Origin: Candidatus Margulisiibacteriota bacterium
GTDB lineage: Bacteria; Margulisbacteria; Marinamargulisbacteria; SXXA01; SICP01
Reading direction: 5' to 3'
NCBI GenBank assembly: GCA_009691415.1
Contig: SICP01000008.1
Span: forward strand, 1-53,052
Length of the DNA stretch: 53,052 nt
Shown one piece after another: positions 42,963 through 49,680 of this stretch. How positions within the stretch are numbered: position 1 is the first letter of the stretch; each line of letters opens with the position of its first letter. A model generated the notes under the pieces. That model made no database searches and was not told the origin of the DNA. It worked only from the letters and a program-made list of their open reading frames with translations. Both the position numbers and the translations under genes were made by a program.

Positions 42963-43694
42963 TTACGCCCTTTTCGTTATAATTTCGGTTGTTCCTGGTG
43001 GTGGGGAAGGAACCAAAGCTTTTACTCTGGAACTGACAGAAATTAATTCTTGGGAGGCATTGTATTTTTTCAATAACTTAGTCACCCCTAACAATGCATT
43101 TTCGCGAGAAAAAATTGCAATAACGGTAAGGAAAATCAATTGGACATCCAAAATAAAATTCTGGTGCTCAATGTAAAATATACCCAAAGCGCTTTTCCAT
43201 GGTCTAATTAACTGATTATATCCAATATCTGGATCAAGATGGTCTTTGAGGATTTCACCCTCATCAGAAAATACGATAGAAGAAAAATCTGTAATTCCTG
43301 GTTTTACAGTGAGTAGTTTTTGCTCTACAGATGTGTAGAGATCGGTCTCCCGTTTTACATTAGGTCTTGGTCCGACAAGGCTCATATCGCCCAGAAGCAC
43401 ATTCCAAAGCTGCGTAATTTCATCCAATTTGCATTTTCGAATAAATCTTCCGACGGCTGTAATACGTTGATCGTTTGAGGAGGTGGAATCCACGCCGCTT
43501 TTATCCGCATTCATGACCATAGATCTCAGTTTTACCATATAAAAGGTTGTATTGTTTTGCCCAACTCTTGGGGGAATATAGAAAGGGGAATGGTAGTCCT
43601 GAATCCAAACTAAGAATGTTACCACCAACAACAAGGGAGAAAAAGCGATGAGCCCTATTAATGCCAGTGAAATATCGAGTGTGCGCTTAAACAT
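42963..43694 (-). CDS. Monotopic phosphoglycosyl transferase (initiating sugar transferase)
   Basis: The 243-residue enzyme places the first sugar phosphate on undecaprenyl phosphate. It has the single N-terminal re-entrant hydrophobic segment with Ser-Pro (residues 10-31), FYMVKLRSM, the catalytic Asp91-Glu92 in KLDEITQLWNV and LVGPRP (106-111). It is the short PglC/WbaP-core type, although its C-terminus carries about 40 extra residues. The start overlaps the E1-beta stop by 8 bases. Confidence 0.9.
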   Translation of the reverse strand: MFKRTLDISLALIGLIAFSPLLLVVTFLVWIQDYHSPFYIPPRVGQNNTTFYMVKLRSMVMNADKSGVDSTSSNDQRITAVGRFIRKCKLDEITQLWNVLLGDMSLVGPRPNVKRETDLYTSVEQKLLTVKPGITDFSSIVFSDEGEILKDHLDPDIGYNQLIRPWKSALGIFYIEHQNFILDVQLIFLTVIAIFSRENALLGVTKLLKKYNASQELISVSSRVKALVPSPPPGTTEIITKRA

Positions 43695-44691
43695 GTACCT
43701 TACTCCCTATCATCTCTTTTACGGCGGAAATAATCTGTGACGGTTGTGTATAGTAGATCTCTTCTAAGACTTTACTTGTTGGAGCAGGAGCGTTGGTTAA
43801 TGTTAACCGCTTGGGAGACGCTTTCATGACGGCTAAGGGAACATGTTCCATAACCCCCGCAATAATTTCTCCAGCTAGACCACAACTTTGCCAACCGCCA
43901 TCAACCGCTAGAAGACGTCCTGTTTTTTGCACAGACTCAAGAATTACGTCCCAATGAATGGGATTAATAACACGTAAGTCTACGACTTCTACGGAAATAC
44001 CTTCTTCTTCTAATGTCTTTGCTGCATCCATAGCCAGTTTTGTTGAAAAACTTGCAGCAACGATTGTGATGTCATTCCCGTTTTTTAAAACGTGAGGCCC
44101 CACTTCGGAGAGGTTGAGAAGCTGTATTCCGGGATCTTCCTCTTCCCATTCATATAGCCATCTATCGTCAATATAAAGTACAGGATCATCACAAAGCACA
44201 CTTGCAATAAGGAGATCTCTGGCGTCCCTAGCTGTGGCAGGCATCACAACGCGTAACCCTGGCACATGTGCAAACCAGGCATGCAGTGCTTGCGAATGTT
44301 GTGCACCTTGCTCTCCGCCACGGTTTACGATGCCGCGAATAGTTACGGCTGGGTGCACTTGTCCACCAAACATGGATGACCATTTTGCAGCTTGTGACAC
44401 AATTTGATCGATGGCTAAAATCATAAAATCTACACGGGGATGAACCACAATTGGGCGATACCCACAAACAGATGCACCAATGGCAGCACCGGTTACGGCT
44501 ACTTCTGATACAGGGCTATCAATGACCCTTTCTACTCCAAATTTCTTATCTAAGTCTTTCATGGTAGACCCTACATACCAAGGACTCCAAAGGCCCTGTC
44601 CGAAAACAAATACTTCTTTATGATTTTCTAATAGGTATGTAAACGCTTGTAAAATGCCATCGGCGTAATTGAGTGTTTTATTATTTTGCAT
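43687..44691 (-). CDS. Thiamine-diphosphate dehydrogenase E1 beta-like subunit in the polysaccharide locus
   Basis: The 334-residue protein has the pyrimidine-binding and C-terminal domains of the E1 beta / transketolase-C group: ERVIDSPVSEVAVTGAAIGAS (with the conserved Glu), FGGQVHPAVTIRG, GEQGAQHSQALHAWFAHVPG, and ISVEVVDLRVINPIHWD. It overlaps the E1 alpha gene by 11 bases. No E2 or E3 gene is near, and the housekeeping complex is elsewhere (8984-14335). So I suspect a dedicated thiamine-dependent C2 transfer or decarboxylation in sugar or acyl biosynthesis. Substrate unknown. Confidence 0.82.
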   Translation of the reverse strand: MQNNKTLNYADGILQAFTYLLENHKEVFVFGQGLWSPWYVGSTMKDLDKKFGVERVIDSPVSEVAVTGAAIGASVCGYRPIVVHPRVDFMILAIDQIVSQAAKWSSMFGGQVHPAVTIRGIVNRGGEQGAQHSQALHAWFAHVPGLRVVMPATARDARDLLIASVLCDDPVLYIDDRWLYEWEEEDPGIQLLNLSEVGPHVLKNGNDITIVAASFSTKLAMDAAKTLEEEGISVEVVDLRVINPIHWDVILESVQKTGRLLAVDGGWQSCGLAGEIIAGVMEHVPLAVMKASPKRLTLTNAPAPTSKVLEEIYYTQPSQIISAVKEMIGSKVHV

Positions 44692-45724
44692 ATACGGTCT
44701 CTAAAATTGCAGATAGTTCTGGATAGGGTGCATTGAGCGCATTTTGCCATGCCTCCTTTATCTGACTATCCACTTCCTCCTGAATGTCAGTGTGTGTTTT
44801 TTCTGTAAGCATATTGGATTGTATTAATGCCAAAGCGAGACGTGAGAGGGGATCTCTTTTTCGCCAAACAGATAATTCGGCGCCGCGTTTAACACCTACA
44901 TCCGTATCTTCACTTGGTCCGACGTGCCCACGCCATCTGTAGGTGACGGCTTCAATAAAGAAGGGGCCTTTTCCTGCCCTGGCATGCTCTATAGCTCTTT
45001 GGGCCGTTTTACGAACGGTGACCACATCATTGCCATCAATGACGGCGTGTTCGATTAAATTTGCTTGTGCGAAACGAGCGGTTGTATTTGCAGGTTGTCT
45101 AAGCTCTATATGTAAGTGACTTGAAAACAAATTATTTTCACAGACAAAAATCACAGGCAACTTCATAACGGACGCTAGATTAAGGGATTCTTGAACAGCC
45201 CCTTCTTCAATCGCGCCATCACCAAAATAACTGACAGCCACTTCCCCTTTTTTCGACAATTTTGCGGCAAGTCCCGCACCGGTTGCGATGGGAACAGATC
45301 CTCCTACAATAGGCACTGAACCGTGAAATCCAATACTAGGATCAAACAGGTGCATGGACCCGCCCATTCCTTTAGAACAACCCGTCACTTTACCCAAAAC
45401 TTCGGCAAATAAAGAATCTAGCGTTCCGCCTAAGGCTAGAAAATGTGAATGAGATCGATGTGCGCCGAATACTTTATCATTTGGCGTAAGATAGGCAGAA
45501 ACACCTACCGCCGCGGCTTCTTGTCCAATTCCTAAATGACAAGGACATTTAATGGCACCGGAAATAATCTGTTCTGCAATTTTTTCTTCAGCTTTTCTGA
45601 TGACCCACATGATCCGGAGTTCATTTAATAAAATCTCTTTATTTTCCCCCACAATATTGATGGGTTCTTGATAACAAAGAGGGTCGGAGAGATTACCAAG
45701 TGATTCTATGAGATGCGTAGTCAT
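44681..45724 (-). CDS. Thiamine-diphosphate dehydrogenase E1 alpha-like subunit in the polysaccharide locus
   Basis: The 347-residue protein shows IKCPCHLGIGQEAAAVGVSA, FGAHRSHSHFLALGG, the cofactor motif GDGAIEEGAVQESLNLA ending in ENN, and RWRGHVGPSEDTD, all typical of E1 alpha subunits of 2-oxoacid dehydrogenases. The Ser-containing phosphorylation loop of mitochondrial enzymes is not a concern here. It begins directly after the DegT stop (no gap) and runs into the beta gene, so the three are one unit. Paired E1 alpha/beta proteins without an E2 are known to add two-carbon branches in sugar antibiotics such as avilamycin, which is a possible model. Confidence 0.83.
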   Translation of the reverse strand: MTTHLIESLGNLSDPLCYQEPINIVGENKEILLNELRIMWVIRKAEEKIAEQIISGAIKCPCHLGIGQEAAAVGVSAYLTPNDKVFGAHRSHSHFLALGGTLDSLFAEVLGKVTGCSKGMGGSMHLFDPSIGFHGSVPIVGGSVPIATGAGLAAKLSKKGEVAVSYFGDGAIEEGAVQESLNLASVMKLPVIFVCENNLFSSHLHIELRQPANTTARFAQANLIEHAVIDGNDVVTVRKTAQRAIEHARAGKGPFFIEAVTYRWRGHVGPSEDTDVGVKRGAELSVWRKRDPLSRLALALIQSNMLTEKTHTDIQEEVDSQIKEAWQNALNAPYPELSAILETVYAK

Positions 45725-46852
45725 CTAGCGTTTATAGAATGTGCGTATTTTATCGCACACGTACTCAACATCTTCGTTGGTTAATGTTGGATAAATAGGA
45801 AGTAAAAGGCTACGGCTAATCATGTTTTCCGAATAAGGAAGATTTCCCTCAATTTTGAGATCTCTAAATTGATGTACTAACGTTCCTGCCCACTGCACAA
45901 TAGTACCAATGCCATTTTCTTTGAGATAGGCCTGTAATTCATTTCTACGGTCGGCTTCAATTTCATAATTCTGAAAAATATCCCGTCTATCTTTTTCATC
46001 TTGTGTTGAAATAGGAAGCAACAGTTCGGACAAAGAAGATAATTTCTGATGGTATAAGTCTGCAATTTCACGACGTCTTTTGACGATGTCGTTATACTGA
46101 CCTAAACGAAAATCGAGTATCGCCGCCTGCAAATTATCTAAGCGCGAATTATAGCCCCACGTGACAACTAGCCCATCTGCATTTCTACCATGATCGCGCA
46201 ACAACATCATCTGCTCATACATTTCATCATCGTTAGTTAAGATTGCGCCGCCATCACCAAAACATCCCAGTGTTTTTGCGGGGTAGAAACTAATCGTTCC
46301 GGCCTTTCCGAAGCTCCCTACGTGAGCCCCTTTAAATGTGGCACCAAGTGCTTGAGCGGCATCTTCGACAATAACGAGATTGTGTTTTTTTGCAATTTTT
46401 ACCAGCGCTTCCATGTCGCAACTACGTCCATTGAGCTGTGTAGGCAGAATAGCCTTGGTCTTAGACGTAATTTTAGCTTCTACTTGGTTGACATCCATCA
46501 TGTGATCGCGTGCGCAATCAATGGCGATAGGAATGGCTCCTGCAAAATGAATCGCTGCGGCGGTAGCAACATAGGTATGGGTACAAAAAATGACTTCATC
46601 ACCAGGCATAACACCCGCTGCACGCAAAGCAATCACAATAGCATCCGTTCCATTAGCTACACCGATTGCATATTTCATACCGCAGTATTTCGCAAGATTG
46701 GTTTCAAATTCTACGAGGTCTTTCTGAAGTATATAAGCACCGCGATTGGCGATGTCTAAAAAAATATTAGTTAGTTCTTCTGCGTCTTGTTTGAAGATTG
46801 CAGGGTAATTAAAAAATGGGACCGTTTTCTGTTCTACTTTTGTTGTATTAAT
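45725..46852 (-). CDS. DegT/DnrJ/EryC1 aminotransferase with a non-canonical start
   Basis: The PLP enzyme aminates a keto-sugar. The frame has VANGTDAIVIALRAAG, PTQLNGRSCDM, EDAAQALGATFKG and the PLP-binding Lys in FYPAKTLGCFGDGG. The first ATG, at 46678, lies inside the family's conserved core. Upstream the frame stays open and encodes the expected N-terminus: VPFFNYPAIFKQDAEEL, then RGAYILQKDLVEFE. Between the upstream stop (46889-46891) and that ATG there is no ATG, GTG or TTG. I place the start at ATT 46852, six bases after AAGGGG, giving 375 residues. It heads the operon down to wzz copy 2. Confidence 0.82.
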   Translation of the reverse strand: MNTTKVEQKTVPFFNYPAIFKQDAEELTNIFLDIANRGAYILQKDLVEFETNLAKYCGMKYAIGVANGTDAIVIALRAAGVMPGDEVIFCTHTYVATAAAIHFAGAIPIAIDCARDHMMDVNQVEAKITSKTKAILPTQLNGRSCDMEALVKIAKKHNLVIVEDAAQALGATFKGAHVGSFGKAGTISFYPAKTLGCFGDGGAILTNDDEMYEQMMLLRDHGRNADGLVVTWGYNSRLDNLQAAILDFRLGQYNDIVKRRREIADLYHQKLSSLSELLLPISTQDEKDRRDIFQNYEIEADRRNELQAYLKENGIGTIVQWAGTLVHQFRDLKIEGNLPYSENMISRSLLLPIYPTLTNEDVEYVCDKIRTFYKR

Positions 46853-47002
46853 GGGACACCCCTTGTGATTTGTGATGTTAGTTGCTTGCTAAAAGATAGC
46901 AATGTTATTAAAGAATTCCAAAGGGTTTATAAAAAAATTTTCCTAATTATTTTTTTCTGTGTATTATATACGAGTTTTATCAATTTTATAAGAGGATCGT
47001 GC
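46853..47002. promoter_or_regulatory. Divergent intergenic region, DegT / wbpB-wbpD
   Basis: This AT-rich gap of 150 bases must carry the promoters of two divergent operons. AGAGGA before the plus-strand ATG is a good ribosome binding site. A TATTATATAC stretch about 30 bases upstream of the plus-strand ATG could hold a -10 element, but no clear -35 partner is seen. On the minus strand the AAGGGGTG near 46859-46866 is the only candidate ribosome site for the DegT gene. Confidence 0.35.
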
Positions 47003-48580
47003 ATGAAGATTTGTGTAGTTGGGGCAGGTAGATGGGGAAGAAACCATATTAAGGCCTTGCATGAAATGGGGCTATTAGGCGGAGTCGTAGAATCTTTTCC
47101 CGCAGCTCAGGATATCATTAGATCACTTTACCCAAATACCCCCCTGTTCTCTACTCTAGAAGAGTCTGGAGCACTTGATTTTCCGGCCTATACTATTGCA
47201 GTGCCTGCTGAAGTTCATTACAAAGTGGCTAAGTCCCTTCTGGAAAACGGGAAGCATGTTTTAGTTGAAAAACCCATTACGCTTAATTCTGATGATGCTA
47301 AGGATTTAGTTCGTTTAGCCTCATCTAAAAACCTGATTCTTATGACAGGTCATTTATTACTTTTTCATCCAGCTATTCGTCAAATTAAAACGTTTATTGA
47401 AAACGGTGAGATTGGAAAACTACAATATATATATAGTAATCGCCTGAATCTAGGTACAGTTCGTAAAGAAGAGAATAGCCTGTGGAGTTTTGCCCCACAC
47501 GATATTTCAATTTTCCAATATTTTGTAGGTCAAAAACCAACCCAAGTTCGTTCGACAGGGGGCGCATTTTTGCAACCTCATATCCATGACACAACTATTA
47601 CCACTTTGCAGTACCCGTCTAATATCGTCGGCCATATCTTTGTTAGCTGGCTACATCCATTTAAGGAGCATAGGCTTGTTGTCATTGGCTCTAAGGGGAT
47701 GTTGTCATTTGAAGATTCCAGCGAGGATAAAGCCTTGCTTCTATATAAAAAAGGCATCGATTGGGTTGAAGGCGAACCTATCAAAAGAGATGGTCCTTCA
47801 GAACGTATTTCTTATCCAAATTCTGCACCGTTGACAACTGAAATGCAACATTTTGTTGATTGTATATTAGGAAAAGAAACAAATAATTTAATTAGTGGTG
47901 AACAGGGTGCCGAAGTCCTAGAGATTCTTGAGACGGCTGAACATGATTTGCATAGACGCTCTGCAGAACCCTCTAAACGGGAAGGGGTTTTTGTTCATGA
48001 AACGGCATTCGTAGATCCTGCCGCTGTAATTGGCGAAGGTACTAAAATTTGGAATTTCTCTAATATTCAAAAAAATGCAGACATCGGCAAAAAATGTATC
48101 TTGGGACAAAACGTCAATATTGGAACCAATGTTAAGATTGGACATTCTTGCAAAATTCAAAACAATGTCTCTGTTTATGAGGGTGTAGAGCTAGGGGATT
48201 ATGTTTTTTGTGGACCTTCCATGGTCTTTACCAACATTATGATTCCTCGCAGCAAATACCCACAAGCTAGTTCTAAGTTTTATCTTAAGACTACTGTTAA
48301 AGAAGGCGCCAGTATTGGAGCCAACGCGACTATTGTATGTGGCACCACATTAGGACGTTTTTGTTTGATCGGAGCGGGTACAGTCGTCACGAAAGATGTT
48401 CCTGACTTTGCTATTGTAGTTGGAAATCCTGGAAAGGTTATTGGCTGGATTTCTGAAGCCGGAACGCACCTAAAATTTGATGCCACAGATCGTTTCTTTT
48501 GCGAAAAAAGTCAAAAATATTATGTACTATCTCAAAATCATGTCCAAGAAATAGAAGGAGTTTTAACATGCAAACATTAA
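47003..48580 (+). CDS. Fused UDP-GlcNAcA 3-dehydrogenase (WbpB/WlbA) and N-acetyltransferase (WbpD/WlbB)
   Basis: Residues 1-318 form a Gfo/Idh/MocA oxidoreductase: VVGAGRWGRNHIKAL (about 5-19), VEKPITLNSDDAK with the catalytic-type Lys90, GHLLLFHPAIRQIK and APHDISIFQYF. Residues 329-525 form a hexapeptide-repeat acetyltransferase: NADIGKKCILGQNVNIG, NNVSVYEGVELGDYVFCGP and GAGTVVTKDVPDFAIVVGNP. These are steps two and four in the route to UDP-GlcNAc(3NAc)A. They are usually separate genes (wbpB, wbpD), but here they are one 525-residue chain. The start is ATG 47003 after AGAGGA; the longer frame has no homology. It overlaps the wbpE-like gene by 13 bases. Confidence 0.88.
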   Translation: MKICVVGAGRWGRNHIKALHEMGLLGGVVESFPAAQDIIRSLYPNTPLFSTLEESGALDFPAYTIAVPAEVHYKVAKSLLENGKHVLVEKPITLNSDDAKDLVRLASSKNLILMTGHLLLFHPAIRQIKTFIENGEIGKLQYIYSNRLNLGTVRKEENSLWSFAPHDISIFQYFVGQKPTQVRSTGGAFLQPHIHDTTITTLQYPSNIVGHIFVSWLHPFKEHRLVVIGSKGMLSFEDSSEDKALLLYKKGIDWVEGEPIKRDGPSERISYPNSAPLTTEMQHFVDCILGKETNNLISGEQGAEVLEILETAEHDLHRRSAEPSKREGVFVHETAFVDPAAVIGEGTKIWNFSNIQKNADIGKKCILGQNVNIGTNVKIGHSCKIQNNVSVYEGVELGDYVFCGPSMVFTNIMIPRSKYPQASSKFYLKTTVKEGASIGANATIVCGTTLGRFCLIGAGTVVTKDVPDFAIVVGNPGKVIGWISEAGTHLKFDATDRFFCEKSQKYYVLSQNHVQEIEGVLTCKH

Positions 48581-49680
48581 TTAAATCTGTTCCCTTACTT
48601 GATCTACACAGAGAATATGCGCCGATTCGAACAGAGGTTTTAAAAGCGATCGAAGAAGTTGTTGATTCTACACAATTTATTATGGGTCCTAAAATTACCG
48701 AATTAGAAAAAAAGATTGCCACATATTGCGATGCAAAACGCGCGGTTGGTGTATCCTCCGGAACTGACGCATTGGTCATTGCATTGATGGCTCTTGAGAT
48801 TGGTCAAGACGACGAAGTCATTACAACACCCTTTACGTTTTTTGCGACTGCGGGCAGTATTGCGCGTGTGGGTGCTAAGGCTGTATTTGTTGATATTGAT
48901 CCGCTGACATACAACATTGATCCAGCAAAAATTGAAGCCGCTATCACGCCTAAAACAAAGGCGATTATGCCAGTCCATTTATTTGGACAAATGGCGGACA
49001 TGGATCCGATTATGGATATTGCCAAACGTCACAATTTATTTGTTATTGAAGATGCTGCGCAAGCCATTGGATCTACTTACAAAGGCAAAAAGGCTGGATC
49101 GGTTGGAACAATTGGTTGCTTTTCATTTTTTCCGAGCAAAAATTTGGGATGTTGTGGAGATGGTGGGATTGTCACGACTAATGACGAAGCGCTTGCTGAT
49201 AAATTAGAAATTTTGCGTGTTCATGGATCCAAACCCAAATATTACCATCATTTAATTGGCGGCAATTTCCGGCTAGATCCATTGCAAGCAGCGGTGCTCT
49301 TGGTGAAACTTCCTTTCCTGGAAGGTCATCATGCGGTGCGTCGCCAAAATGCAGCCTTTTTTGATGCCTCCTTCAAAGGTATTTTAGACACGCCTTATGT
49401 CCAAGAGGGAAATGGCATGATTTATAATCAATACACATTGCGACTTAAAAATCGTGTGGCGATGATTAATGCCTTAGATGCTAAAAATATTGGTCACTCT
49501 ATTTATTATCCTGTACCACTTCATATGCAATCATGCTTTGAGCACTGGGGATATAAAGCGGGTGATTTTCCTGAATCCGAAAAAGCGGCAACCGAAGTGT
49601 TATCTATCCCAATTTTTTCGGGGTTAACACAAGAAGAATTGGAAACCGTTGTCCGCGTCATTACAAATCATAAAAACTAA
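48568..49680 (+). CDS. wbpE: UDP-3-keto-GlcNAcA aminotransferase, WbpE/WlbC-like (DegT family)
   Basis: The PLP enzyme transfers the amine of glutamate to the 3-keto sugar made by WbpB. The 370-residue protein opens with SVPLLDLHREYAPIRTEV. It then has VGVSSGTDALVIALMAL, PVHLFGQMADMDPI, EDAAQAIGSTYKGKKAG and the PLP Lys in FFPSKNLGCCGDGG, and shows the family's GGNFRLDPLQAAVL near residue 230. The start is ATG 48568, behind AAGGAG (48555-48560), within the end of the upstream gene. Its place straight after wbpB-wbpD supports the WbpE role. Confidence 0.9.
   Translation: MQTLIKSVPLLDLHREYAPIRTEVLKAIEEVVDSTQFIMGPKITELEKKIATYCDAKRAVGVSSGTDALVIALMALEIGQDDEVITTPFTFFATAGSIARVGAKAVFVDIDPLTYNIDPAKIEAAITPKTKAIMPVHLFGQMADMDPIMDIAKRHNLFVIEDAAQAIGSTYKGKKAGSVGTIGCFSFFPSKNLGCCGDGGIVTTNDEALADKLEILRVHGSKPKYYHHLIGGNFRLDPLQAAVLLVKLPFLEGHHAVRRQNAAFFDASFKGILDTPYVQEGNGMIYNQYTLRLKNRVAMINALDAKNIGHSIYYPVPLHMQSCFEHWGYKAGDFPESEKAATEVLSIPIFSGLTQEELETVVRVITNHKN

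Follow-up and report, generated by a model that had tools for sequence, protein, structure and literature searches.

A DegT-family aminotransferase gene without a usual start codon, and its putative ATT start, in a Candidatus Margulisiibacteriota bacterium

The stretch of DNA analysed here (the window; 53,052 nt of contig SICP01000008.1 from a Candidatus Margulisiibacteriota draft genome) harbours on its minus strand four consecutive genes, probably carried on one transcript, which encode a DegT-family sugar aminotransferase, the two subunits of a thiamine-diphosphate enzyme and a sugar transferase (Table 1). The order of the four recurs in two of 37 loci, each viewed with flanks of up to 3 kb, namely in Peristeroidobacter (L052) and in a Legionellaceae genome (L057). 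More loosely, the module of a DegT gene, a split thiamine-diphosphate enzyme and a polyprenyl-phosphate sugar transferase (42963-46852 in the window) is found across phyla, with the split enzyme being E1-alpha/beta-like here and in the two genomes above, and by look consisting of two transketolase-like halves at two further loci (L041 and L060). Divergent from the four genes is one for a Gfo/Idh/MocA dehydrogenase fused to a hexapeptide acetyltransferase (47003-48580), followed by a second DegT gene (48568-49680); this pair presumably belongs to a UDP-GlcNAc3NAcA-type pathway. A sigma-70 promoter scan of 46600-47200 returned no candidate, with 2.0 expected in shuffled sequence, and a TATAAT at 46968-46963 was noticed by eye only.

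The DegT frame is open and intact, with no stop or frame break over the 375 codons of 45725-46852. Its product matches PF01041 at 334.3 bits (curated cut-off 19.8) over profile positions 4-360 of 360, has QdtB (3frk; E 2e-72) as its closest solved relative, and displays a SFYPAK sequence (ISFYPAKTLG) that aligns with QdtB and that we take to be the catalytic lysine motif of the family. Direct reading of the minus strand demonstrates that ATG, GTG and TTG are absent from this frame between the TAG at 46889-46891 and the ATG at 46678, confirming what the original prediction had stated; after the TAG the codons run CAA GCA ACT AAC ATC ACA AAT CAC AAG GGG TGT CCC ATT AAT. The coordinates given there for the ATT (46852), six bases after AAGGGG, are likewise exact, with TGTCCC forming the spacer between AAGGGG (46864-46859) and ATT (46852-46850). 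The first ATG (46678-46676; codon index 70, residue 71 of the 387-residue frame) had been placed about 58 codons inside the conserved domain. It does lie within the domain, but 58 codons is its distance from the ATT; as the Pfam match begins at residue 36, the ATG is only 35 residues into it. Gene callers restricted to ATG, GTG and TTG would cut 58 N-terminal residues off the protein.

Table 1. Coordinates of the features discussed (positions are those of the window unless a locus is named)
Feature	Position	Strand	Basis or remark
5′ leader arm ACCCUUUG, which by prediction base-pairs with the ribosome-binding site and masks it	46919-46926	minus	folding
Hairpin within the predicted leader fold, UUGCUA-UCUUU-UAGCAA	46886-46902	minus	folding
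TAG stop closing the DegT frame upstream	46889-46891	minus	frame read directly
3′ arm CAAGGGGU of the predicted helix, includes the ribosome-binding site	46858-46865	minus	folding
AAGGGG, putative ribosome-binding (Shine-Dalgarno-like) site	46859-46864	minus	-7.2 kcal/mol with the 16S tail
ATT, proposed DegT start codon	46850-46852	minus	in frame; AAGGGG 6 bases upstream, VPFF 10 codons downstream
DegT/DnrJ/EryC1/StrS sugar aminotransferase, an intact frame of 375 residues counted from ATT	45725-46852	minus	frame, PF01041, QdtB likeness
First usual start (ATG), within the conserved domain, without a ribosome-binding site	46676-46678	minus	+0.1 kcal/mol
E1-alpha-like thiamine-diphosphate enzyme subunit	44681-45724	minus	PF00676; no ribosome-binding site, +2.4 kcal/mol
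E1-beta-like subunit	43687-44691	minus	11-nt overlap with E1-alpha; weak site, -2.9 kcal/mol
Polyprenyl-phosphate sugar transferase (Bac_transf)	42963-43694	minus	PF02397; own good ribosome-binding site, -7.1 kcal/mol
obgE, ATT at the conserved Met place	L112:2084-3103 (G000:C7); L127 in G001	minus (G000)	first usual start at codon index 67 in both

Where the protein ought to begin can be judged from its relatives. A homologue search gave 37 loci in named genomes, mostly Planctomycetota and Pseudomonadota, at 26-57 % identity; the conserved N-terminal motif VPFFNYP was scored in 34 of 36 of these (L039-L074; L069 and L071 were not scorable), with the distant L075 left out, as were 29 same-phylum relatives (L010-L038), 27 of which lack the motif expression. 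In 33 of the 34 the distance from the motif back to the nearest usual start (ATG, GTG or TTG) is 2-9 codons, and in the remaining one (L066) it is 17. The ATT of the DegT gene, 10 codons upstream of VPFFNYP, is thus at about the usual start place of the family. Since a usual start is available in all 34 scored homologues, which judging by their sequences have no need of an ATT, the ATT is probably a derived state. No match to the protein at E 1e-95 exists in 73 other genomes of the phylum, the best relatives there reaching 43 % identity over the full length and 48 % in partial matches, and those of other phyla up to 57 %. Horizontal acquisition of the operon is likely on this tree-free comparison.

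Shine-Dalgarno energies were computed against ACCUCCUU as the 16S tail. The genome's own 16S gene has a canonical tail, ending in GGATCACCTCCTTT. For the zone before the ATT the energy is -7.2 kcal/mol, a value reached by 184 of 15,148 background positions (1.2 %). The other codons ahead of VPFF that differ from ATG by one or two bases have no comparable site, with energies of +0.6 (ATC 46876), +2.9 (AAG), -1.1 (ACG) and -0.8 kcal/mol (GTC). Strong sites are not enriched before near-cognate codons generally, occurring at 28 of 1182 ATT codons (2.4 %, as at ordinary codons) and at 11 of 572 ATC codons, against 73 of 763 for ATG. Near-cognate codons that lie upstream of the first usual start and have an energy of -7 kcal/mol or better number 11; in three cases, DegT, infC and the frame L112:81-1457, 20 or more codons separate such a codon from the next usual start. 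The last was taken as chance, as its ATG presumably fits the family. A genome-wide habit of such starts was also considered and rejected: the pattern AGGAGG-N4-8-ATT occurs at 47 sites, compared with 32 in a reversed control, and a long frame without a nearby usual start was found at none of the 30 of these 47 sites that have a locus (two of the 30, L160 and L161, being the same ATT). ATT starts hence give no sign of being widespread in this genome, within the reach of a pattern that the DegT site, with its AAGGGG, and obgE would escape.

Other genes of the genome do lack a usual start. The survey covered 413,482 bases, made up of the window and 20 stretches of the 1,306,139-base draft, one of which was picked for holding infC. 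It yielded 384 largely non-overlapping ORFs, including 317 of at least 150 aa, and the 40 with the latest first usual start were judged by eye. Frames of at least 150 aa whose first usual start is deep within a conserved N-terminus were, on this inspection, DegT, obgE, infC, a prfB-like frame and a transposase-like fragment. The prfB-like frame (L106:11562-12644), presumably prfB itself and hence a programmed frameshift gene, has no in-frame usual start. The other (L108:10834-11337), which we take for a piece of a transposase, has its first usual start at codon index 54 and is probably a decayed insertion element. A pcnB-like gene (PF01743 match, L099) was dismissed as a further case, as usual starts are available to it.

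For infC (L077, G000:C13:50685 region), the start place is occupied by ATA seven bases after GGAGG, identically in this genome (G000) and in the congener G001. Across 22 infC loci (L077-L098) from 26 genomes searched, this place, as judged by eye, holds ATA in 17, ATT in three and ATC in two, mostly behind a GGAGG-like site; a usual start codon does occur close by in four of the 22 (G005, G006, G012 and G017). The start region of obgE reads CAA ATT AAG TTC GTT GAT in both G000 and G001, with the ATT where the family has its initial Met; the codon there is ATG in G002, a genome of the same family. Seven of 23 loci, in which the motif did not locate the gene, were left out. Between the two congeners 95 of 984 obgE bases differ, with 7, 0 and 88 of the differences at codon positions 1, 2 and 3, respectively, a pattern indicative of strong selection on the reading frame in both genomes. 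Within ATTAA, the ATT shares a base with the stop codon of the gene before it, presumably rpmA: its last T is also the first base of that stop, and the conservation of this T has a second cause. As obgE displays no clear ribosome-binding site, it may be started by ribosomes finishing the upstream gene. Being a core gene, under visible selection on its frame and present in two congeneric genome records, obgE is a cleaner case of an ATT start than DegT, and its need to start at a non-usual codon raises the likelihood that the ATT of DegT works. With the position among homologues, the ribosome-binding site, the intact frame and the infC and obgE starts of the same genome all in favour of the start proposed in the original prediction, ATT 46850-46852 is the best-supported start of the DegT gene and probably the true one.

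Comparable starts have been described in other bacteria. Binns and Masters are said to have reported in 2002 that the AUU start of Escherichia coli pcnB limits its expression; pcnB shares with DegT the AUU start, but is not a sugar-operon gene and has no orthology to it. When the ATT of DegT was first proposed, such starts were described as known for infC and pcnB, where they limit expression. The infC half of this statement agrees with PMC5472188, in which infC starts with ATT in E. coli and with ATC in Streptomyces, IF3 represses these starts, and few non-usual starts are said to have been characterised. Like DegT, infC thus has a near-cognate AUH start (AUU, AUA or AUC) behind a Shine-Dalgarno site; however, infC regulates itself, and DegT, which encodes no initiation factor, could only respond to the level of IF3 and not close a loop. 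That source also describes sigR of Streptomyces, with an IF3-sensitive non-usual start that sets stoichiometry, although here the codon is GTC and the product a sigma factor. In Staphylococcus aureus, according to PMC13009471, infC starts at AUA, and new AUU and AUA starts, of cvfC1 and ccpN, respectively, have extended Shine-Dalgarno motifs and yield approximately 10 % of AUG reporter expression in RPMI. Both resemble DegT in their near-cognate start, and cvfC1 also in being first in its operon, but they come with direct ribosome data, whereas the DegT site is shorter and predicted to be buried. Among the matches listed in the literature search, none dealt with a DegT gene or an obgE that starts at ATT. 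The DegT case fits this known kind of near-cognate start, and no new mechanism is called for.

The burial just mentioned concerns a predicted element that, as with the coupling of E1-alpha described below, was absent from the original prediction. Leaders of 75-140 bases upstream of the ATT, plus 35 after its first base, were folded, and in these models an 8-bp helix between ACCCUUUG (46926-46919) and CAAGGGGU (46865-46858) buries AAGGGG. The modelled probability of AAGGGG being unpaired is 0.002-0.003 with a long leader (0.002 once the leader reaches 90 bases) and 0.49 with a 60-base leader, which is without the first arm. When the upstream part was shuffled, this probability averaged 0.42-0.44, and none of 400 shuffles was as low at either of two leader lengths. 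For a 93-base leader piece the folding energy is -16.4 kcal/mol (z -2.95), a value matched by one of 200 shuffles. Of the 101 usual starts in the sample that have good Shine-Dalgarno sites, one is as closed as DegT and seven are at 0.05 or below; the value for infC is 0.12. A rise in model temperature from 15 to 55 degrees lifts the unpaired probability only from 0.0004 to 0.013, making a simple thermometer unlikely. As regards relatives of the leader, 167 bases of it compared with 16 genomes matched only themselves and, at E 1.9e-4, 32 A/T-rich bases of G011, and an Rfam search of the window found no family at gathering scores. If the helix forms as modelled, the buried AAGGGG would argue for very low output from the ATT.

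The original prediction had itself offered a mutated start and a silenced gene as the alternative. Accordingly worded, a usual start would have been lost recently by point mutation, or would vary among strains, leaving a nearly silent gene and the ATT as a remnant. This is weaker than the ATT start and improbable, although, with no match at the E-value above in the 73 other genomes of the phylum, no close orthologue speaks against it. The presence of usual starts in every scored homologue speaks for it, a Shine-Dalgarno site would persist after such a loss, and the leader is predicted to close that site as well. Against it are the unbroken 375 codons, the open frames downstream and the other genes of the genus that lack usual starts. 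Further, a random base change that destroys ATG can yield seven codons other than the usual starts; AUU is one of these, and the codon found is thus a proven natural start type. Replacement of AUG by AUU is itself rare, which again favours loss: PMC5622118 records one such switch among 61,358 reconstructed ancestral AUG starts.

That a base or indel error in the assembly conceals a usual start is very unlikely. A substitution or small indel near the ATT is possible, the genome being a draft (34 contigs, 84 % complete) with a single assembly at this locus, and two small frames, opened by TTG 46902 and GTG 46859 in the alternative registers, run across the region of the ATT. Conversely, the locus is internal to a 53-kb contig, away from its edges, the longest single-base run near the start (six T at 46816) is downstream of both small-frame stops (46836 and 46850), and a second genome has the same obgE and infC starts. 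Least probable of all is entry from another frame, by a prfB-type frameshift from a small upstream frame, or at another near-cognate codon: the sample does contain a prfB-like gene, GTG 46859 opens a three-codon frame whose TAA (stop 46850) overlaps the ATT and TTG 46902 a 22-codon frame with its stop at 46836, but GTG 46859 has no Shine-Dalgarno site at a workable distance, nor have ATC 46876 and the inner ATG any, and an N-terminal extension is unneeded in 33 of 34 homologues.

Returning to initiation at the ATT, which we infer along with its weakness and its sensitivity to IF3, an intact DegT aminotransferase, heading an operon that also encodes a two-subunit thiamine-diphosphate enzyme and a sugar transferase, would be translated from 46850-46852 by ribosomes entering from the AAGGGG site. 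Imperfect pairing of the initiator tRNA with AUU, and rejection of most such complexes by IF3, would lead to low output. The effect may well extend beyond the first gene. In coupled cistrons the downstream one depends on ribosomes that have translated the upstream one, and the E1-alpha ATG abuts the DegT stop (TAG immediately followed by ATG). As E1-alpha has no ribosome-binding site and starts at that stop, a weak DegT start should throttle it too, its translation depending, if the two are coupled, on ribosomes that entered at the ATT. The ATT start would in this manner hold the whole small operon at low output. Helix and AUU together may even form a switch, although we consider this doubtful: a signal would open the helix, the level of IF3 would then set ribosome entry, and a surface-sugar operon, probably acquired from another phylum, would be held very low but adjustable, in a genus that would also use AUH starts for ordinary genes beyond infC, namely obgE and those of the DegT operon.
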